From the NCBI GenBank assembly GCA_903918315.1, contig CAIXEA010000011.1, positions 1 to 37,236 on the forward strand: a DNA stretch of 37,236 nt. The letters run 5' to 3'. The notes beneath the pieces were generated by a model. The model did no database searches, was not told the origin of the DNA, and worked only from the letters and a program-made list of their open reading frames with translations. Origin of the DNA: an uncultured Acetobacteraceae bacterium. Its GTDB lineage: Bacteria; Pseudomonadota; Alphaproteobacteria; Acetobacterales; Acetobacteraceae. This document shows positions 3,914 to 11,106 of this stretch, in pieces. The position numbers and the translations under genes are program-made. How positions within the stretch are numbered: the first letter of the stretch is position 1; every line of letters begins with the position of its first letter.

Positions 3914-4011
3914 AGCATGATCGCCATAGGTGGAACCACGCGGCGGCGTGAATCATGCGATCAAACAAAGAGTTCTACAGCACGATTGGGTCAACTTGAC
4001 CCAGTCGTGCT
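3912..4011 (+). repeat. Two-hairpin palindromic intergenic element
   Basis: The element begins at the ispDF stop codon. First stem: GCATGAT (3915-3921) with ATCATGC (3952-3958). Second, much stronger stem: 3979-3994 with 3996-4011, 16 pairs including one G-T, around a single central base. The second arm ends three bases before the Shine-Dalgarno of the next gene. I recall similar two-part palindromic elements, with GAGCATGAT ends and a central AGTTCTA, dispersed in alphaproteobacterial genomes. Only one copy is present here, so repeat status is an inference. It may also end ispDF transcription. Confidence 0.55.
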
Positions 4012-4013
4012 TT

Positions 4014-4020
4014 AAGGAGG
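4014..4020 (+). promoter_or_regulatory. Strong ribosome binding site for the lipoprotein gene
   Basis: AAGGAGG lies five bases before the ATG at 4026 and is one of the strongest Shine-Dalgarno sequences in the window. It fixes the start of the lipoprotein and rules out the longer in-frame start upstream. Confidence 0.75.
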
Positions 4021-4025
4021 TTTCC

Positions 4026-4337
4026 ATGCGGCGTTTACGGTTCGCGATGGCGGTCACGGCTCTGATGGCCTTGGCCGGCTGCACGTCTGGCGGGGTGGCG
4101 ACGCCGCCTTATCCGCCCGTGCCCGCGCCCCTGCCGGAAATCATGCCCAAACCCCCCGTGACCCCGGACGCGCTGATCTGGCAGCCCGGCCATTGGGACT
4201 GGAATGGCGCCGGTTATGTCTGGCAGCCCGGCCAATATGTGCCGGCCGCCGGTCATGGCGCCTGGTGGCAAACCGGCTGGTGGAGCCTGCGGAATGACGA
4301 ATGGCGCTGGGAACCGGCGCATTGGGCGGGCGGCTGA
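4026..4337 (+). CDS. Small Trp-rich (YXWXPG-repeat) lipoprotein
   Basis: A 103-residue predicted outer-membrane or periplasmic lipoprotein. The N-terminus is a lipoprotein signal peptide with basic MRRLR, a hydrophobic core and the lipobox LAGC, giving lipidated Cys19. A Pro-rich linker (about 25-48) follows. The mature domain has imperfect Trp-Pro-Gly repeats: IWQPGHWDW, YVWQPGQYV and WRWEPAHW. Such repeats occur in small surface lipoproteins of proteobacteria annotated as YXWGXW-repeat proteins, whose function is not known to me. It has its own strong ribosome binding site and is separated from ispDF by a palindromic element, so it may be an independent unit. It precedes the lipid A operon, consistent with but not proof of an envelope role. 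Confidence 0.8.
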   Translation: MRRLRFAMAVTALMALAGCTSGGVATPPYPPVPAPLPEIMPKPPVTPDALIWQPGHWDWNGAGYVWQPGQYVPAAGHGAWWQTGWWSLRNDEWRWEPAHWAGG

Positions 4338-4422: not shown

Positions 4423-4704
4423 ATGTCGTCCACCTTTGAGACGGTTGCCGGAATCATCGCCGATACCTGTGATATCGACCGTGACAAGATCACGTCCGAA
4501 AGCCATGCCATCAACGATCTGGGCATCGACAGCCTGGATTTCCTCGACGTCGCCTTCGCCATCGACAAGGCGTTCGGCATCAAGATGCCGCTGGAGCAAT
4601 GGACCCAGGAAGTGAACGACTCGAAGGTCTCGTCCGACGAGTATTTCGTTCTGTGCAATCTCTGCACCAATATCGACAAGCTGGTGGCGGCGAAGTCGGC
4701 CTGA
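4423..4704 (+). CDS. acpXL: Acyl carrier protein AcpXL
   Basis: A 93-residue specialised acyl carrier protein. The phosphopantetheine site is GIDSLDF with Ser37. The sequence closely follows rhizobial AcpXL as I remember it, particularly the C-terminal stretches EQWTQEVN and [12 protein letters not shown], which ordinary AcpP lacks. AcpXL carries the growing very-long-chain (C26-C28, omega-1 hydroxylated) fatty acid that LpxXL places on lipid A. It is the first gene of a co-directional run through lpxXL (4423-11106), and fabZ begins four bases after its stop, so it is probably the operon leader. The 85 bases upstream contain no convincing promoter that I can identify. Confidence 0.94.
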
Positions 4705-4708
4705 TCCC

Positions 4709-5182
4709 ATGCGCCTCGAATACTTCCAGATGGTGGATCGGATCGTCTCCCTCGATCCGGTCGCCCGCACCATCCGGATGGAGGGGCTGGTGCCCGAGCA
4801 AAGCCCGATCTTCGAGGGGCATTTCCCGGGCCATCCCATCCTGCCCGGTGTGCTGATGATCGAGACCATCGCCCAGACGGGCGGCTGGCTCGTGCTGGCG
4901 ACGCTGCGCTTTGCCGCCATGCCCTTCCTGTTGCAGGTCAAGGAAGCCAAAATGCGGAGCTTCGTCGTCCCCGGCCAGCATCTGGAAACCGAGGCCCGCC
5001 TGATCCACGACGGATCAGGCTATGCGGTGATCGAGGGCAGTATCACGTCCGACGGCAAAAAAGTCGCGGACGCCGAAATCCGCTACCGCGTCGTCCCTTT
5101 CCCGAATGAGACCTTGCGCGCCCAGATGCTCGAAACGGCGCGGCGCATCGAAGTGCCGGAGGCGTATTTCCATGCCGCATGA
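4709..5182 (+). CDS. fabZXL: FabZ-like 3-hydroxyacyl-ACP dehydratase of the VLCFA operon
   Basis: A 157-residue hot-dog-fold dehydratase. The active-site helix region reads EGHFPGHPILPGVLMIE; His38 and Glu52 match the catalytic His/Glu pair of FabZ. It should remove water from 3-hydroxyacyl-AcpXL during elongation of the lipid A very-long-chain acyl group. It is slightly longer at the C-terminus than housekeeping FabZ (YRVVPFPNE onwards), as is usual for copies in this cluster. The gene starts four bases after acpXL, and its last codons overlap the start of the next ketosynthase gene (ATG at 5172, stop at 5180-5182). Cytosolic. The operon context, not the sequence alone, distinguishes it from the housekeeping fabZ. 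Confidence 0.9.
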   Translation: MRLEYFQMVDRIVSLDPVARTIRMEGLVPEQSPIFEGHFPGHPILPGVLMIETIAQTGGWLVLATLRFAAMPFLLQVKEAKMRSFVVPGQHLETEARLIHDGSGYAVIEGSITSDGKKVADAEIRYRVVPFPNETLRAQMLETARRIEVPEAYFHAA

Positions 5183-6353
5183 CCGCGACGCCCTGATCAC
5201 CGGGGTCGGACTCGTTTCCTGCCTGGGGGAGGGCCTGGACGCCCACTGGGATGCCTTGAACGCATTCAGCCCGGTGCTGGACACGACCAGTTTCCCAGGC
5301 TTCCCGGTCCATCCCATGACCGCCCTCGCCCTCGATCGGCAGATCCCCAAACGCGGCGATCAGCGGCAGATGGAAGCCTGGCAGCGTATCGGCACCTATG
5401 CCGCCGGCGCCGCCCTCGATTCCGCCGGCGTGAAGGGCGACGCGGATCTGCTGTCACGCATGCACATGATTGTCGCGGCCGGCGGTGGTGAGCGGGACTA
5501 TGCCGTTGATTCGGCCCTGCTGTCCGCTTTGCCGAAGGCGGAGAATCCGGGCGCATACCTGAATGAGCACCTGCTGAGCGACCTGCGGCCAACCCTGTTT
5601 CTGGCGCAGTTGTCCAATCTTCTGGCCGGCAATATCTCATTGGTGCACGGCGTCGTGGGCTCGTCGCGGACCTTCATGGGGGAGGAATCCGCGGGCGCGG
5701 ATGCCGTCCGCATCGCCTGCGCGCGCATCGCGGCCGGGCAGGGGGACCTGTTCCTCGTCGGCGGTTCCTACAACGCGCAACGGCCCGATGTTCTCGTGCA
5801 TTTCGAGATGGGGCGGCTGCTGTGGAAGCAGGATTTCGCCGGTGTCTGGCAGCGCCAGGAAGCCGGTGGCGGGCTCCTGCTGGGCTCCCTCGGATGTTTC
5901 CTGGTGATCGAAAGCCGGGCGCATGCGGCGGCCCGCGGCGCGGCCCCATTGGCCCGGATCGCCTCGGTGGCGACCGACCGGTGCCGGCGTGATGCCGGGG
6001 TTGCCACCGCCGTTGCCCGCCGCCAGATGGCGGCCTTGGACGGGACCTATGATGCCGCTGGCGCGGCGGTCATCTCCGGTGCCTCGGGCGCGGCCGCCGC
6101 GACGGTGGAGGAGCGGGCCTTCCTCGACACTCTCGGCCTGCCGGTGCGTGCGGGTGCGACCGCGCTTGGCCATAGTTTAGAACCGGCGTTTCCGGCCAGT
6201 GTGGCGCTCGCGGCGATGGCGCTGGCGCGCGGAACATTGTTCCCGCCGCTGGAACCGGCGGAAACCCCGATGACCGCACCGTTACGCGATGTCCTCGTCA
6301 CTGGCTGGGGCCACTGGCGCGGCGAAGCGCTGGCCCACCTCACCGCGGAATAA
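5172..6353 (+). CDS. fabF2XL: Degenerate beta-ketoacyl-ACP synthase (FabF2XL-like, active-site Cys absent)
   Basis: A 393-residue thiolase-fold ketosynthase. The fold is clear from ALITGVGLVSCLG at the N-terminus, GDLFLVGGSYN, GGGLLLGSLGCFLVIESR and LGHSLEPAFPAS. By ungapped alignment with the neighbouring intact ketosynthase, the nucleophile position (STAC) is occupied by Glu172 within FMGEESAGADAV. The HGT motif is replaced by ISGASGAA, with Ala304 where His should be, while the second His (His334 in LGHS) is kept. The protein therefore probably cannot condense acyl chains alone. By analogy with chain-length factors, where Gln replaces Cys, it may pair with the next gene product. The start at 5172 is chosen over an upstream in-frame ATG at 5106 because it overlaps the fabZ end in the usual way and begins just before the first core strand. 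Confidence 0.85.
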   Translation: MPHDRDALITGVGLVSCLGEGLDAHWDALNAFSPVLDTTSFPGFPVHPMTALALDRQIPKRGDQRQMEAWQRIGTYAAGAALDSAGVKGDADLLSRMHMIVAAGGGERDYAVDSALLSALPKAENPGAYLNEHLLSDLRPTLFLAQLSNLLAGNISLVHGVVGSSRTFMGEESAGADAVRIACARIAAGQGDLFLVGGSYNAQRPDVLVHFEMGRLLWKQDFAGVWQRQEAGGGLLLGSLGCFLVIESRAHAAARGAAPLARIASVATDRCRRDAGVATAVARRQMAALDGTYDAAGAAVISGASGAAAATVEERAFLDTLGLPVRAGATALGHSLEPAFPASVALAAMALARGTLFPPLEPAETPMTAPLRDVLVTGWGHWRGEALAHLTAE

Positions 6354-6362
6354 GAGGCGAAG

Positions 6363-7646
6363 ATGCAGGATACCGACCATCTTGGCAGGCCGATCATCGT
6401 CGTGACGGGGGTGGGGCTGATCACGTCGCTGGGGCAGGGGACGGACGCCAATTGGCGGGCCTTGACCGCCGGGAAATCCGGGATCCACCGCATCACCCGC
6501 TTCCCGGTCGATGGCATGAGGACCACCATGGCGGGAACCGTCGATTTCATTCCGGTCGCCGTGCCCTCCGCCCCCGCGATGTCCGAACGCCTGGCAGAAC
6601 TGGTGATCGAGGAAGCCGTCACCCAGGCAGCCATCGGCCAGCCTGGCGATTTCCCCGGACCGCTGTTCCTGGCCCTGCCGCCGGTGGAGATGGAATGGCC
6701 GCAGCGCCTGGCGCTCGCCGCTGAATCCGGTGCGCGCGACACCGTCACCTATGATGATCTGCTCCGCGCGGCCGGGTCCGGCGATCATCATGCGTATTAT
6801 GAGCGGTTCCTGTTCGCGTCTGTCGGCGAAAATCTGGCTTCGCGCTTCGGCACCAGGGGCACGCCGATCGCGACCTCGACCGCCTGCGCGTCGGGCGGCA
6901 CCGCGATCCAGTTGGGGGTCGAGGCGATCCGCCGTGGCGAAACCGAATCAGCCCTGGTCGTCGGCACCGATGCCTCGGTGAACCCGGAGAGTCTGATCCG
7001 CTTCTCGCTGCTGTCGGCCCTGTCGACCCGCAATGACTCACCAGAAACCGCGTCGCGTCCCTTCGCCAAGGATCGCGATGGGTTCATCATGTCCGAAGGC
7101 GCCGGTGCGCTGGTGCTCGAAAGCCTGACCCATGCCCGGGCGCGCGGGGCGACCATCCTCGGTGTCATCGAAGGCTGTGGGGAGGCCGCGGATGGCTTCC
7201 ATCGCACCCGGTCGTCGCCGGATGGCAAGCCGATCATCGCCTGCATGCGCAATGCCCTGGACGATGCCGGGCTGACCCCGGATGATGTCGGCTACATCAA
7301 TGCCCATGGCACCAGCACGCCCGAGAACGACAAGATGGAATGGGTTGGCGTATCGGCGGTGTTTGGCGCGCGGGCGTCGTCGATTCCGATCTCCTCCAAC
7401 AAATCGATGATCGGGCATACCTTGACCGCCGCGGGCGCGATCGAGGCGATCTTCACCCTGCTGACCGTCCGGCACGGCCTTCTGCCGCCGACGATCAACT
7501 ACGACACGCCCGACCCCGCCGTGCCCGTCGATTGCGTGCCGAACGTGGCGCGGGCGGCGGTTGTGTCGCACGCGATTTCCAACTCATTCGGGTTTGGCGG
7601 GCAGAATGTGTGCGTGGTGATCGGGGCGGCGCCGGGGCGGTCATGA
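6363..7646 (+). CDS. fabF1XL: Beta-ketoacyl-ACP synthase (FabF1XL-like, intact)
   Basis: A 427-residue FabF-type condensing enzyme. The catalytic triad is complete: Cys175 in IATSTACASGG, His315 in NAHGTSTP and His352 in SMIGHTLTAAG. The C-terminal SNSFGFGGQN is canonical. Compared with housekeeping FabF there is an extra segment around residues 100-150 (PPVEMEWPQR through HHAYYERF), which may shape the acyl pocket for long chains. It should condense malonyl units with acyl-AcpXL during VLCFA synthesis. It follows the degenerate ketosynthase by nine bases, with a purine-rich ribosome binding site (AAGAGGCGAAG) and overlaps the next SDR gene by four bases (ATGA). The pair with the preceding gene is likely translated together. 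Confidence 0.93.
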   Translation: MQDTDHLGRPIIVVTGVGLITSLGQGTDANWRALTAGKSGIHRITRFPVDGMRTTMAGTVDFIPVAVPSAPAMSERLAELVIEEAVTQAAIGQPGDFPGPLFLALPPVEMEWPQRLALAAESGARDTVTYDDLLRAAGSGDHHAYYERFLFASVGENLASRFGTRGTPIATSTACASGGTAIQLGVEAIRRGETESALVVGTDASVNPESLIRFSLLSALSTRNDSPETASRPFAKDRDGFIMSEGAGALVLESLTHARARGATILGVIEGCGEAADGFHRTRSSPDGKPIIACMRNALDDAGLTPDDVGYINAHGTSTPENDKMEWVGVSAVFGARASSIPISSNKSMIGHTLTAAGAIEAIFTLLTVRHGLLPPTINYDTPDPAVPVDCVPNVARAAVVSHAISNSFGFGGQNVCVVIGAAPGRS

Positions 7647-8365
7647 CCCAGCCCCGCGCCCTCGTCATCGGCGGCCGGCGCGGCATTGGCGCCGCGGTCG
7701 TCGAAACCCTGGCTGAGCGCGGGTTCGCGGTCACCTACACCTATCGCACCGATCCGGGCACCTTCGATCCGGCCATCACCGGCCTGCCGCTCGACCTCGC
7801 GGATCGCGCCGGGGTGGAGGCGTTCGCGGTGGCGCAGGAGGACGCGCCCGCCTGGGATGCGCTGGTGCAGGTCGGCGGCACCACCTACGACGCGCTGGCG
7901 GCGATGATGGATCAGGGTGCGGCCGAGACGGTGATGCAGGTCAACTACTTCGCCTTCGCCCGCATCGCCCGCGCCGTGGTGCGCCCGATGATGCGGGCCC
8001 GGTCCGGGCGGATCGTGGCCATCGGATCGGTGATCGGGCAGATCGCCAGCCAGGGCAATGCCGCCTATGGCGCGACCAAGGCGGCGCTGCTGTCCTATGT
8101 CCGCAGCCTCGCGATCGAGAGCGCGAAGCGCGGCGTGACCGTGAATTATGTCGCGCCCGGCTTCGTCGATACCGAGATGATGGCCCCCTTCGCGGCCTAT
8201 CGGGGCCCGACCGAGGGGCGGATCCCGGCGGGCCGCTTTGCCAGACCGAAAGAAATCGCGGCGGTGGTCGGTTTTTTGGTCAGCCCGGATGCCAGCTACG
8301 TGAATGGGGCCTATATTCCGGTGGACGGGGGCCTGACCGCCTCCGCTGGCATACCCCGTAGCTGA
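7643..8365 (+). CDS. SDR family 3-oxoacyl-ACP reductase (FabG-like) in the VLCFA operon
   Basis: A 240-residue classical short-chain dehydrogenase/reductase. The nucleotide-binding loop is GGRRGIGA (10-17). The tetrad is complete: Asn101, Ser129 (IAIGS-like context), Tyr142 and Lys146 (YGATK). APGFVDTEM and IPVDGG follow as in FabG. In this operon it is the obvious candidate for reducing 3-ketoacyl-AcpXL to the hydroxy form. The six-gene rhizobial VLCFA cluster, as I know it, has no such gene, so here the operon carries its own ketoreductase. Its ATG overlaps the fabF1XL stop. The start is fixed by that overlap; upstream codons in frame are shadows of fabF1XL. The substrate is inferred from context only. 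Confidence 0.87.
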   Translation: MTQPRALVIGGRRGIGAAVVETLAERGFAVTYTYRTDPGTFDPAITGLPLDLADRAGVEAFAVAQEDAPAWDALVQVGGTTYDALAAMMDQGAAETVMQVNYFAFARIARAVVRPMMRARSGRIVAIGSVIGQIASQGNAAYGATKAALLSYVRSLAIESAKRGVTVNYVAPGFVDTEMMAPFAAYRGPTEGRIPAGRFARPKEIAAVVGFLVSPDASYVNGAYIPVDGGLTASAGIPRS

Positions 8366-8379
8366 TTGGATACCCCGCC

Positions 8380-9138
8380 ATGAGCAACTCTTTGAACACC
8401 ATGATCGAGGATTTCTGGCAAGCGCGTGAGCGCGGTGAGTATTTCCCGGCCGCCTATTTCGACAAGCTGACGCAGGATCAGGCCTACCGGATCCAGTTGG
8501 CCATCGTGGAACGCCGCGCCGATCGCGGGGAGTATCAGCTGGGCTGGAAGGTCGGCCTGACCTCGGAAGCCATCCAGCAGCAGTTTGGCTGTCATGAACC
8601 GGTGTTCGGCTGCATCCTCAGCAATGTCACGTCAGGTCACGAATTTTCCGCCTCCGAGCTGATCGCCCCGGGATTCGAGAGCGAACTGTGCATGCGCATC
8701 GAGCGTGATCTCCCGTCGGATGCGACCATTGAAGAGATCCGGCACGCGATCTCGGTCGTCTATCCGGCGCTGGAAATCATTGAAACGCGCGGCCCGTTCA
8801 CCGAGCAGCTCGCCCTCGCACTGGCCGACAATGCGCAGCAGAAGACGGTCGTGATGGGGCAGGCAACCGGCTTGCCGCGTTCGCTGGAGATGCTGACCGC
8901 GACGGTGACCATCAACGGCGTGGAGGTCGCGAAGGGGTACGGCAAGGCGGTGCTGGGCAATCCCCTGAATTCGATCCACTGGCTGGTCCGCAAGCTGGCG
9001 GAATTCGGCTATTCGCTGAAGGCGGGCGACATCGTGATGACCGGCTCCTTCACCCGCCAGTTCCCCCTGGCGGCGGGTGACCGGGTGCGGGTCAGCTTCT
9101 CGGGCATCGGGGATGTCGAAATCTCGGTCAAGGTGTAG
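8380..9138 (+). CDS. 2-keto-4-pentenoate hydratase-like (FAH superfamily) protein
   Basis: A 252-residue protein of the MhpD/HpaH hydratase branch of the fumarylacetoacetate hydrolase superfamily. GWKVGLTSEAIQQQFG and EPVFGCIL are typical of 2-hydroxypenta-2,4-dienoate hydratases. The divalent-metal ligands appear as Glu100 and Glu102 (GFESEL) and Glu132 (ALEIIETR). The C-terminal GDIVMTGSFT with RVSFSGIG completes the fold. Known relatives hydrate 2-keto-4-enoic acids in aromatic meta-cleavage pathways. Such chemistry is not part of known VLCFA synthesis, so its position between the SDR and adh2XL (14 bases after one, 42 before the other, same strand) is unexpected. It may act on a different substrate or simply be co-transcribed. 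Confidence 0.88.
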   Translation: MSNSLNTMIEDFWQARERGEYFPAAYFDKLTQDQAYRIQLAIVERRADRGEYQLGWKVGLTSEAIQQQFGCHEPVFGCILSNVTSGHEFSASELIAPGFESELCMRIERDLPSDATIEEIRHAISVVYPALEIIETRGPFTEQLALALADNAQQKTVVMGQATGLPRSLEMLTATVTINGVEVAKGYGKAVLGNPLNSIHWLVRKLAEFGYSLKAGDIVMTGSFTRQFPLAAGDRVRVSFSGIGDVEISVKV

Positions 9139-9180: not shown

Positions 9181-10212
9181 ATGGCCCAGATTCGCGCGTT
9201 GCAATTGATCTCCGACCGGGTGCTGGACCTGGTGTCATGTGCCGCCCCGCCGCCGCCGGCGCCGGGGGAGGTGCAGATCCGGATCCGCTTCGTCGGTCTG
9301 AATCATATCGACGTCTGGGGCCTGCGTGGCATGGCCTTCGCCAAACGGCTGTATCCCTTGTCGGTGGGGGCGGAAGCGTCCGGCGAAATCCTCGCGGTTG
9401 GGGCGGGGGTTGTCGGCCTCACCCCGGGGGATCGCGTGGTGCCGTTCTCGGCGCTGACCTGCGGCGTCTGCCGGCAATGCCAGCGCGGGCGCGACAATCT
9501 GTGTGAGAATGTGGGCGGTGTGCGCGGTTTCCATGTGAATGGCTTCGGGCAGGAGATCACCAATCATCCCGCGCGCCTGGTGGTCAAGATCCCCGATGGC
9601 GTCGCCCTTGAAGACGCCGCCTGTGTCGCGGTCGCCTATTCCACGGTCGAACATATGCTGTTCGACAATGCCCAGCTGGAACCGGGGGAGACCGTGCTGG
9701 TGCATGCCGGCGGCTCGGGCATCGGCACCATCGCGATCAAGATCGCCAAATCCATCGGCTGCACGGTGATCACCACCGCCGGGTCCGATGAGAAATGCGC
9801 CCGCACCCTGGCCTTGGGCGCGGATCATGCCATCAATTACCGCACCGACCGGTTTGAGGGCGTGGTGCGCAAGCTGACGGGCAAGAAGGGCGTGGATGTG
9901 GTCTTCGAGCATGTCGGCGCCGACACCTGGGCGGGCTCGCTGCTGTCGATGAAGCGGGGCGGGCGGCTGGTGACCTGCGGCGCGACGTCAGGCCCCTCGG
10001 CGACAATGAATCTGATGCAGCTGTTCCAGCAGCAATATCGCATCATCGGCTCGTTCGGATCACCCTTGTCGGCCCTGACCCGGGCATTGGACCGCATCGC
10101 CTCGGGCGTGCGGCCGGTGATCGACACGGTCTACACGCTGGAAGAGTTCCGTGACGGCGTCGCCCGGCTGGAACATCGCGACGTGTTCGGCAAGCTGCTC
10201 GTCACGCTCTAG
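9181..10212 (+). CDS. adh2XL: Zinc-type alcohol dehydrogenase / enoyl reductase-like MDR protein (Adh2XL)
   Basis: A 343-residue medium-chain dehydrogenase/reductase. GLNHIDVWGLRG and GAEASGEILAVG mark the GroES-like N-terminal domain. Four cysteines (94, 97, 100, 108 in CGVCRQCQRGRDNLC) form a structural zinc lobe. The Rossmann loop is HAGGSGIG at 175-182. The NHxD motif in place of the catalytic Cys/His pattern resembles quinone-oxidoreductase-like MDRs, so an enoyl-reducing role in the VLCFA cycle is plausible. An adh2XL gene occupies the same position in rhizobial acpXL clusters. Its stop directly abuts the lpxXL ATG with no intervening base. The actual substrate is not shown by the sequence. 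Confidence 0.87.
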   Translation: MAQIRALQLISDRVLDLVSCAAPPPPAPGEVQIRIRFVGLNHIDVWGLRGMAFAKRLYPLSVGAEASGEILAVGAGVVGLTPGDRVVPFSALTCGVCRQCQRGRDNLCENVGGVRGFHVNGFGQEITNHPARLVVKIPDGVALEDAACVAVAYSTVEHMLFDNAQLEPGETVLVHAGGSGIGTIAIKIAKSIGCTVITTAGSDEKCARTLALGADHAINYRTDRFEGVVRKLTGKKGVDVVFEHVGADTWAGSLLSMKRGGRLVTCGATSGPSATMNLMQLFQQQYRIIGSFGSPLSALTRALDRIASGVRPVIDTVYTLEEFRDGVARLEHRDVFGKLLVTL

Positions 10213-11106
10213 ATGCGGCGTCAATTCGCGCTCTATGGCGACCGTATCCTCGGGCGTCTGGTCAAGTGGTCCATCCACCTGCTGCGCCGGGCCGATCCGG
10301 ATCGGACCGCGGATTTTTGCGGCTGGCTGGCGCGGGCGGTGGGGCCGCTGCTGCCGGCGCATCGCATCGGGCGCGCCAATATCCAGGCGGCCTTTCCGGA
10401 TCAGGATGCGGCCTGGGTCGAGAAGACCCTGAAAGAGGCGTGGGACAATCTCGGGCGGGTCGCGGGTGAATACGTGCATATGGCGCGTATCTGGGATTTC
10501 GACACGGCGAATCCCAATAGCGGGCGCATCCTGGCCGAGAATACGGATCTGTTTGAAACCCTGCGCGACGATGGTCAGCCCGCTTTATGCTTCGCGGCCC
10601 ATCTGGCGAACTGGGAGCTGCCGGCCGTGGCCGCCGCCGCGCATGGCATGGCCTCCGCCGTGGTGTACCGGATGCCCAACAACAAGGCCGTCGCGCGGGA
10701 GATCACGCGCATCCGGGCGCCGTTGATGGGACGCCTGATCCGCACCCGGGCCCAGGCCGCGCTGCAGATGGCGGCGGCGCTGGAGGCGGGGGAGCATCTG
10801 GGCATGCTGGTGGATCAACATTTCTCGCGCGGGGTTGATGTCACCTTCTTCGGGCGGACCTGCAAGGCCAATCCCTCAGTGGCGCGCCTGGCCCGGCGTT
10901 TCGAATGCCCGGTCGTGGGCGTGCGGGTGGTGCGCACGCCCGATCGGCGGTTTCGCATCATGGGGGAGGGGCCCTTCGATCTGCCCAGGGACTCCGCGGG
11001 TCTGATCGATGTGCAGGCGGCCACGCAGATGATGACCAGCGTCGTCGAACGCTGGGTCCGGGACAATCCCGGCCAATATCTCTGGTTCCATCGCCGTTGG
11101 CGGTAA
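10213..11106 (+). CDS. lpxXL: Lipid A VLCFA acyltransferase LpxXL
   Basis: A 297-residue LpxL/HtrB-family late acyltransferase. The catalytic HX4E motif is His130-Glu135 in AAHLANWE. The acceptor-binding segment MLVDQHFSRGVDVTFFGR and the Arg/Phe-rich C-terminus (YLWFHRRWR) are typical. Residues around 12-25 could form a short membrane-associating helix. It should transfer the very-long-chain acyl group from AcpXL to the lipid A precursor at the inner-membrane cytosolic face. It starts immediately after the adh2XL stop codon and ends the operon. The strict operon position, after acpXL-fabZ-fabF-fabF-adh, distinguishes LpxXL from ordinary LpxL, which would use laurate or myristate. Confidence 0.92.
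   Translation: MRRQFALYGDRILGRLVKWSIHLLRRADPDRTADFCGWLARAVGPLLPAHRIGRANIQAAFPDQDAAWVEKTLKEAWDNLGRVAGEYVHMARIWDFDTANPNSGRILAENTDLFETLRDDGQPALCFAAHLANWELPAVAAAAHGMASAVVYRMPNNKAVAREITRIRAPLMGRLIRTRAQAALQMAAALEAGEHLGMLVDQHFSRGVDVTFFGRTCKANPSVARLARRFECPVVGVRVVRTPDRRFRIMGEGPFDLPRDSAGLIDVQAATQMMTSVVERWVRDNPGQYLWFHRRWR

Follow-up and report, generated by a model that had tools for sequence, protein, structure and literature searches.

Clusters for the very long-chain fatty acid (VLCFA) of lipid A carry two ketosynthase genes side by side, fabF2XL and fabF1XL, and the locus analysed here raises the question of why two are present when one of them encodes Glu where the other encodes the nucleophile Cys. 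In the parts of the fabF2XL and acpXL literature available to us, we found neither an explanation of how rhizobia and related bacteria make the 26- to 30-carbon fatty acids of lipid A or of why the ketosynthase genes are paired, nor mention of a missing Cys or of a dimer for FabF2XL (earlier mention in work on Sinorhizobium meliloti cluster mutants is possible); the literature searched also showed no link of acpXL or the lipid A VLCFA ketosynthases to a chain-length factor (CLF). The available portion of a report on Agrobacterium fabrum describes a fabF2XL mutant, with an insertion within the operon, that had no VLCFA and was partly restored by its own gene in trans (PMC11901934), and the corresponding portion of a study on Bradyrhizobium ORS278 states that neither a fabF1XL nor a fabF2XL mutant could be obtained (PMC5613085). 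We consider it likely that FabF2XL has lost its ketosynthase activity and forms, together with the active FabF1XL, an obligate heterodimer that functions like a pair of ketosynthase (KS) and CLF of separate origin.

Results and Discussion

The ketosynthase pair lies within an acpXL cluster

The DNA analysed (the window) is a stretch of 37,236 nucleotides from an uncultured Acetobacteraceae bacterium, and its acpXL cluster contains the following genes:

4423..4704, + strand: acpXL, specialised acyl carrier protein of 93 aa (NCBIfam NF005079, 164 bits, cut-off 83; PF00550)
4709..5182, + strand: fabZXL, dehydratase of 157 aa (PF07977, FabA-like; under the FabZ equivalog cut-off; named by operon position)
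5172..6353, + strand: fabF2XL, ketosynthase-fold protein of 393 aa, proposed non-catalytic, CLF-like subunit (NF005084; residue conservation; models)
6363..7646, + strand: fabF1XL, ketosynthase of 427 aa, proposed catalytic subunit (NF005076, 719 bits, cut-off 629)
7643..8365, + strand: SDR family, FabG-like reductase of the cluster (PF13561; FabG-type models under cut-off)
9181..10212, + strand: zinc-type dehydrogenase at the adhA2XL position (PF00107, PF08240)
10213..11106, + strand: lpxXL, acyltransferase that attaches the very long acyl chain to lipid A (NF005120, 391 bits, cut-off 273)

In window coordinates, the 3' end of fabZXL and the 5' end of fabF2XL share 11 bases. FabF2XL scores 537 bits against NF005084 (PRK06519.1; curated cut-off 320) and its gene sits between fabZXL and fabF1XL, as membership in this family requires; the neighbour order acpXL-fabZXL-fabF2XL-fabF1XL is the same as for the family, which comprises the FabF2XL proteins of acpXL clusters. 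While the family name, "beta-ketoacyl-ACP synthase", implies a catalytic synthase, catalytic residues are missing from the 118 distinct members examined.

The catalytic residues are lost in FabF2XL and kept in FabF1XL

The residues on which the comparison of the two proteins turns are encoded as follows (all counts are over distinct sequences, identical ones being counted once):

5583..5681, + strand: residues 138-170 of FabF2XL (LRPTLFLAQLxNLLAGNIS...RTFMG), the most conserved block, ahead of the nucleophile elbow
5682..5687, + strand: codons of Glu171 and Glu172 of FabF2XL, with Glu172 at the nucleophile position (E in 118/118 at both sites)
6081..6083, + strand: Ala304 of FabF2XL, at or beside the lost His of HGT (His in 0/118; the register shifts by at most 2 residues either way)
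6156..6158, + strand: Ala329 of FabF2XL, at the catalytic Lys site (G 73, A 41, Q 2, S 1, N 1; Lys in 0/118)
6171..6173, + strand: His334 of FabF2XL, the last catalytic His (H in 108/118; W 4, S 2, and A, T, Q and N 1 each)
6885..6887, + strand: codon of the nucleophile Cys175 of FabF1XL (TACASGG begins at residue 173)

An earlier reading of this DNA from the sequence alone had placed Glu172 of FabF2XL opposite Cys175 of FabF1XL in a gap-free alignment. Both open reading frames were found at the positions given above, the active-site region aligned without gaps, and E172 and C175 were paired; FMGEES begins at residue 168 of FabF2XL, which makes its second Glu residue 172 (codon 5685-5687). A structural model of the joined proteins, described below, has the same register, with Glu172 and no Cys at the nucleophile position. 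The helices that follow the nucleophile position in this model span 172-187 in FabF2XL and 571-587 in the part corresponding to FabF1XL (C175 becomes residue 572), and each stops 15 residues past the paired position.

Conservation of the substitution, which the earlier reading had suspected, was borne out, as E171 and E172 were invariant and no Cys-bearing FabF2XL was found among the 118 distinct rows. Both Glu codons are used at each site (codon 171, GAG 88 and GAA 30; codon 172, GAA 72 and GAG 46). The contig scan, which contributed 80 of 585 candidates, was biased towards E171 because one of its two search patterns included E171; at loci found by HMM alone, all 47 distinct contexts had EE (L144 stops short of the site, which left 66 of 67 loci to read). 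Comparison of these sequences confirms that E171/E172 conservation is more than chance. In a survey of the phylum, 35 of 398 genomes had FabF2XL among the matches listed to E 1e-30, and each of them belongs to the class of the window. In the class survey, scores dropped from 371 to 94 bits with none listed between, and the 94-bit protein (L013) has a normal Cys, so no intermediate turned up in this survey.

Scoring of the Cys, His and His columns across many acpXL clusters found the catalytic set lost in FabF2XL and kept in FabF1XL. The latter retains Cys175, His315, Lys347, His352 and NSFGFGG, with Cys in 117/117 rows and H315, K347 and H352 in all 115 rows reaching that region; three weak matches (L153, L163 and L164) to proteins other than FabF1XL were included in 120-row counts and left out of the 117-row conservation, distance and residue sets. 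In FabF2XL, loss of the HGT His held up, as the stretch contains no His; Ala304 as its exact counterpart depends on the alignment, sequence alignments giving S302 or S305 and matching of strand ends in the model giving A304. Two changes go beyond the earlier reading: the catalytic Lys is also lost (A329 lies opposite K347 of FabF1XL), and GWGHWRG stands where the NSFGFGG motif would lie near the C-terminus. With the nucleophile Cys, the first His and the Lys absent in 118/118, FabF2XL does not qualify as an active FabF-type synthase. H334, by contrast, is present as had been reported. Its retention in most sequences is not required of a purely structural subunit and counts against the heterodimer reading.

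Invariance of E171 and E172, together with frequent retention of H334, would also fit a homodimeric enzyme in its own right that uses E171/E172, along with H334, for a new reaction, e.g., a KSQ-like malonyl-AcpXL decarboxylase. We regard such an enzyme as unlikely. KSQ domains decarboxylate with Gln replacing Cys and keep both His, whereas FabF2XL has Glu at this site and neither the first His nor the Lys in any of the 118 sequences; the 10 of 118 sequences without H334 still belong to a fabF2XL-fabF1XL pair; residue 171 is acidic in 8/8 CLFs too, which is more in keeping with a structural role than with a common chemistry; and FabF2XL distances correlate best with those of FabF1XL, as shown below.

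The two proteins co-occur, show correlated evolutionary distances and are conserved in complementary regions

At the thresholds used, fabF2XL and fabF1XL had one and the same distribution: 31 of 150 genomes from the order and 9 of 190 from the class had both, and none had either gene alone; the two surveys overlap in a few genomes. The genes adjoin on the same strand in 127 of 128 loci (median gap 22 nt), a set that includes the window and some overlapping duplicates and whose sole non-adjacent locus lies at a contig end. Shared occurrence is expected anyway of any two genes in one operon. Evolutionary distances of FabF2XL and FabF1XL showed the best correlation of the 10 pairs formed by five operon genes (r 0.921, partial 0.647; 56 loci).

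Conservation of the two proteins is complementary and reciprocal. FabF2XL peaks at residues 141-170 (blocks 0.97/0.91/0.91), and at residues 141-150 the value of 0.97 compares with 0.41 in FabF1XL, among the weakest blocks of that protein; from the N- to the C-terminal part, conservation drops in FabF2XL (0.696 to 0.587) and climbs in FabF1XL (0.697 to 0.763). FabF2XL is also the more diverged protein (mean distance 0.664 vs 0.462; 56 loci), and the Pfam C-terminal domain went undetected at E 0.1 in FabF2XL of the window, both of which would suit a functionless, decaying paralogue retained by operon context. That explanation is highly improbable given that 40 FabF2XL positions are essentially invariant, that neither gene was seen without the other in the 150- and 190-genome surveys, and that the A. 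fabrum mutant is described, in the part of the report cited above, as lacking VLCFA.

An N..G interface motif, kept in 22/22 FabF-type rows and absent from FabF1XL, was considered as a heterodimer marker and dropped, since FabB is also without it. The G at position 153 is kept by FabF2XL, CLFs and FabF-type KSs and is missing in FabF1XL and KS-alpha; FabB, which is a homodimer, has A at this position in 9/9 aligned sequences from 12 FabB loci, the other three loci having yielded no ORF under the filter applied. Loss of the motif in FabF1XL is therefore no proof of heterodimerisation by itself.

FabF2XL as a proposed analogue, not a relative, of type II PKS chain-length factors

The likeness to a KS-CLF pair that the sequence-only reading had drawn is supported by the reciprocal catalytic residues, co-occurrence, adjacency, complementary conservation, distances and model, as analogy and not as kinship. 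Like the type II polyketide synthase (PKS) systems (actinorhodin, 1tqy; actinomycete plasmid clusters), in which an active KS gene adjoins a Cys-less paralogue, FabF2XL is a Cys-replaced KS paralogue encoded beside an active KS (eight actinomycete pairs compared), and it shares with these CLFs the fold and an acid before the nucleophile position. Several features differ: the KS gene comes first in the PKS clusters and second here; the nucleophile site holds Q in 6, G in 1 and H in 1 of 8 CLFs and E in 16/16 FabF2XL rows of the same alignment; all 8 CLFs retain the Lys and carry Arg in place of the last His, whereas FabF2XL has lost the Lys and mostly keeps the His; and FabF2XL serves the synthesis of a fatty acid destined for lipid A.

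Descent of FabF2XL from type II PKS CLFs via gene transfer could explain the common fold (TM 0.76 against 1tqy_B) and the acid at -1 beside a non-Cys nucleophile site in both. In a tree of 70 rows, with CLFs solely from actinomycete plasmids, FabF2XL did not join the CLFs; FabF2XL, CLF and KS-alpha formed separate clades with support of 100/100 each. Deep placement of FabF2XL is uncertain given the great length of its branch (2.29). The tree and the opposite pattern of Lys and last His led us to reject this descent, which we rate as very unlikely, and because FabF2XL is a separate lineage with a different loss pattern, we treat it as a CLF analogue.

Two further systems invite comparison. In the PfaC KS-CLF didomain the KS comes first, and the two domains form one polypeptide within a PUFA megasynthase, whereas FabF2XL and FabF1XL are stand-alone type II enzymes. 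The aryl polyene KS-CLF ApeO-ApeC is, according to the available part of its description, a Gram-negative heterodimer whose partner subunit is nearly without the second thiolase domain (PMC8358021); compared by description, its pathway is fatty acid-like, as is that of FabF2XL, and the C-terminal part of FabF2XL is likewise the weaker one.

A heterodimer is feasible in structure models

Modelled singly, FabF2XL had FabF (KAS II) structures as its nearest solved relatives (TM by query about 0.77). FabF homodimers share the fold with FabF2XL, and FabF1XL has all of the catalytic residues; the pair differs from FabF in that FabF2XL is without Cys, His and Lys and FabF1XL without the N..G motif. 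AlphaFold2 modelling of FabF2XL and FabF1XL as one chain (stop between them read as Gly; joined alignment from 23 of the 28 loci at which the two genes share a frame) gave a confident KS-CLF-like arrangement of the joined chains (pTM 0.91, pLDDT 91.1). FabF2XL blocks 101-120, 131-150 and 161-170 gained 9-18 pLDDT points over the single-chain model, which was built from a different alignment; block 271-280 also rose (76 to 85), and blocks 1-10 and 181-190 fell. The joined model superposed on both halves of PfaC KS-CLF (6riw; 947 columns, TM 0.74 by query and 0.66 by target, rmsd 6.8, 14% identity). A KS-type dimer of FabF2XL and FabF1XL is thus feasible as modelled; a preference over homodimers is not implied.

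Proposed mechanism and control of chain length

In the mechanism that we propose, the Cys-His-Lys-His set of FabF1XL would catalyse all of the condensations on chains bound to AcpXL, and FabF2XL would supply the adjoining half of the dimer interface, where the acyl pockets of ketosynthases are located. As FabF2XL has no nucleophile of its own, its vacant site could receive the far end of a chain too long for an ordinary homodimer pocket. FabF2XL probably completes the pocket holding the growing chain; we infer that the heterodimer forms in the cell and that the chain crosses into FabF2XL. More tentatively, and with slightly less than even confidence, we suggest that FabF2XL may be a Glu-marked ruler whose vacant site takes the chain end from FabF1XL and which thereby encodes the C26-C30 length of the lipid A VLCFA.

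A heterodimer without a ruler departs from this proposal in the last step only. FabF2XL could stabilise FabF1XL or dock AcpXL, with length set by the FabF1XL pocket, LpxXL selectivity or AcpXL. The pair evidence (residues, adjacency, co-occurrence, models, distances) is silent on length control, and a precedent exists in the cispentacin protein AmcG, which is without functional motifs, insoluble alone and soluble as a heterodimer with AmcF, with a proposed role in cyclisation and not length in the part of the study available (PMC10698177). The most conserved FabF2XL block, 138-170, would nevertheless, judging from the KS fold, lie at the interface and elbow and not on the outer surface. In addition, a review describes the KS-CLF unit of PUFA synthases as acting on medium (C10) and very long (C20) chains, the C20 step being its task, and reports that exchanging the KS-CLF switched the main product (PMC9702510). 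We see the arrangement without a ruler as possible, with a substantial minority share of our confidence.

Conclusions

FabF2XL with its proposed ruler function may represent a second, separately evolved KS/CLF system, in the stand-alone type II fatty acid synthesis of Alphaproteobacteria, an interpretation that we hold at a little under an even chance. If FabF2XL is a non-catalytic partner, the family label "beta-ketoacyl-ACP synthase" would mislead, results from studies of one gene of the pair would have to be reinterpreted, and chain length would become testable by a one-gene swap. If true, the arrangement of a KS with a dead KS would have evolved more than once, and the lipid A pair would provide a comparison case for the polyketide and PUFA systems.

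Ketosynthase genes of the acpXL cluster

The acpXL cluster, whose genes make the very long chain fatty acid (VLCFA) of lipid A, occupies the following positions in the window, which is part of a 5.0 Mb genome:

4423-4704, + strand, acpXL
4709-5182, + strand, fabZXL
5172-6353, + strand, fabF2XL (NCBIfam NF005084, 537 bits; cut-off 320)
6363-7646, + strand, fabF1XL (NCBIfam NF005076, 719 bits; cut-off 629)
7643-8365, + strand, SDR reductase gene
8380-9138, + strand, FAA-hydrolase-family (FAA-hydrolase/2-keto-4-pentenoate-hydratase-like) gene, within the cluster between the SDR reductase and dehydrogenase genes
9181-10212, + strand, zinc-type dehydrogenase gene
10213-11106, + strand, lpxXL

Among the collected relative loci, only L034 and L156 carry a strong match to the FAA-hydrolase-like gene in this position; weak matches lie at other places in L045, L046, L048, and L159. 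Immediately 5' of acpXL, 3930-4337 (+) encodes a small protein whose N-terminus resembles that of a lipoprotein and which contains WQPGHW/WQPGQY motifs in repeated form. Among the best 80 of 585 candidates, the closest named relatives by FabF2XL identity (70-77%) are mostly Acetobacteraceae-type records (e.g., Rhodopila and Acidisphaera).

Conserved loss of catalytic residues from FabF2XL

The sequence-only reading had set Glu172 of FabF2XL opposite the nucleophile Cys175 of FabF1XL, with the HGT His lost and the last His retained; a gap-free alignment reproduced this placement, the HGT His was missing, and His334 was present. Beyond these residues, the catalytic Lys is also gone from FabF2XL, its C-terminal loop is rewritten relative to NSFGFGG in the alignment, and Pfam (E 0.1) recognized both ketosynthase domains in FabF1XL and the N-terminal one only in FabF2XL.

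Relatives came from two sources: a contig scan using an alignment of nine sequences, from which the best 80 of 585 candidates were kept, and HMM surveys of genomes. Across 118 distinct FabF2XL sequences, R166, T167, G170, E171, E172, G333, and E337 were invariant, bearing out the suspicion that the Glu is conserved; A304, the likely place of the HGT His, varied (A 98, M 13, T 3, C 2, L 1, S 1), as did the catalytic Lys place (G 73, A 41, Q 2, S 1, N 1) and the last His (H 108, W 4, S 2, A 1, T 1, Q 1, N 1). FabF1XL had the nucleophile Cys in 117 of 117 rows and His315, Lys347, and His352 in all 115 rows that cover these positions (the other two are cut off). Because one contig-scan pattern included E171, HMM-found loci were checked separately, and EE was present in 47/47 distinct contexts; across all loci, both kinds of Glu codon are in use at 171 and at 172. 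The substitution is thus an old feature under protein-level selection, not a lone variation. In one draft genome (G265), FabF2XL is divided between the ends of contigs C85 and C9 (loci L143 and L144), apparently through a break in the assembly and not in the gene itself.

Pairing and complementary conservation

FabF1XL adjoins FabF2XL on the same strand in 127 of 128 loci (a total that counts the window and includes some overlapping loci), the sole exception being truncated by a contig end; the gap between the genes is -19 to 918 nt (median 22). The two proteins occurred in the same 31 of 150 genomes in the order survey (neither in 119) and in the same 9 of 190 in the class survey, at thresholds set after the score gap was known and with a few genomes common to both surveys. 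The order survey accepted FabF2XL at E up to 1e-40 (30 of the 31 exceed the curated cut-off) and FabF1XL at E up to 1e-120 (14 of the 31 exceed its cut-off); the class survey used the curated cut-off for FabF2XL and E up to 1e-110 for FabF1XL. In a phylum survey, FabF2XL was found in 35/398 genomes, all in the window's class. At L058 and L060, lpxXL and the dehydrogenase gene lie upstream on the opposite strand and fabF2XL-fabF1XL are still together, which fits an inseparable unit.

Conservation peaks at residues 141-170 in FabF2XL (block means 0.97, 0.91, 0.91); in FabF1XL, block 141-150 scores 0.41 and peak segments include 211-220 (0.92), 311-320 (0.91), and 351-360 (0.93), the latter two containing the catalytic His. 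From the N- to the C-terminal part, conservation drops from 0.696 to 0.587 in FabF2XL and climbs from 0.697 to 0.763 in FabF1XL. Both residues of the FabF-type motif N149...G153 are present in 118/118 FabF2XL; of 117 FabF1XL, none has the N and two have the G. Type II polyketide synthases (PKS) are similarly split at G153 (chain-length factor (CLF) 8/8, KS-alpha 0/8); however, FabB, a homodimer, also lacks the motif (9/9 aligned), and its loss from FabF1XL should thus not be over-read. Of the ten pairwise comparisons possible with five operon genes, FabF2XL and FabF1XL gave the top correlation of evolutionary distances (r 0.921; partial 0.647; 56 loci), reported without a probability because such distances are not independent. 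FabF1XL residues 156 (6828-6830; E 47, D 40) and 160 (6840-6842; E 46, D 42) are often acidic in the 117 rows, at positions held by Gly and Ile, respectively, in FabF-type rows; the window's own FabF1XL has E156 but S160. These acidic residues could possibly be partners of the invariant FabF2XL Arg residues.

Structure models

Since both genes share one frame, they could be joined into a single 824-residue chain by treating the intervening stop as Gly; AlphaFold2 (54 aligned rows) modelled this chain at pLDDT 91.1 and pTM 0.91, a value that would not be expected from two unplaced 400-residue halves. The helix following the nucleophile position ends 15 residues on in both halves. Compared with FabF2XL modelled alone (pLDDT 91.2), confidence rose with the partner at 101-110 (69 to 87), 111-120 (80 to 95), 131-140 (72 to 88), 141-150 (68 to 78), and 161-170 (81 to 90), segments that make up the dimer interface and the acyl pocket in ketosynthases, and also at 271-280 (76 to 85); it fell at 1-10 (88 to 79), 181-190 (96 to 90), and the joined C-terminus. 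Differing alignments (54 vs 35 rows) may account for part of these changes. The joined model matched single ketosynthase chains at TM about 0.45 (half of the query) and the PfaC KS-CLF didomain 6riw, at rank 14, over 947 columns (TM 0.74 query/0.66 target, rmsd 6.8). For FabF2XL alone, the nearest structures were those of FabF (TM about 0.77), followed closely by ishigamide KS 6kxd_A (0.77) and actinorhodin CLF 1tqy_B (0.76).

Relation to chain-length factors

In a 70-row tree, FabF2XL (100/100), FabF1XL (98/95), CLFs (100/100), KS-alpha (100/100), and other ketosynthases (91/98) formed separate groups; the CLFs were all from actinomycete plasmids, and the deepest neighbour of FabF2XL is not fixed because its branch is very long. 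At the Cys site, type II PKS CLFs have Q 6, G 1, and H 1 (n=8), whereas FabF2XL has Glu; CLFs (8/8) have Asp at the first His and Arg at the last His and keep the Lys, whereas FabF2XL has lost the first His and the Lys and, in 14/16 rows of the shared alignment, kept the last His. Both have an acid immediately before the Cys site. By the evidence here, FabF2XL is CLF-like in its working but not a member of the CLF family.

Functional context

An Agrobacterium fabrum fabF2XL insertion mutant has no VLCFA, partly restored by plasmid-borne fabF2XL (PMC11901934), although the operon context makes a polar effect conceivable. In Bradyrhizobium ORS278, acpXL, fabZXL, fabF1XL, and fabF2XL mutants were unobtainable (PMC5613085), and Sinorhizobium meliloti mutants in the cluster's other genes, including fabF1XL and fabF2XL, were at a growth disadvantage in that study's medium (PMC5539429). 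Word searches found no mention of heterodimer or active site in the first two papers, or of heterodimer or chain length factor in the third; the open-access literature searched yielded no description of FabF2XL as catalytically dead. According to a review (PMC9702510), conserved active residues are missing from the CLF domain of PUFA synthases, and the KS-CLF didomain elongates chains of medium and very long (C20) length.

We consider it likely that FabF2XL is non-catalytic and forms a heterodimer with FabF1XL; that it controls chain length is a more tentative proposal, which we hold with some doubt. All 31 of the 150 order-survey genomes with both proteins are listed in the window's own family, so that VLCFA-lipid A may have a wider distribution among Acetobacteraceae-like bacteria than is implied by the mostly rhizobial papers considered here.
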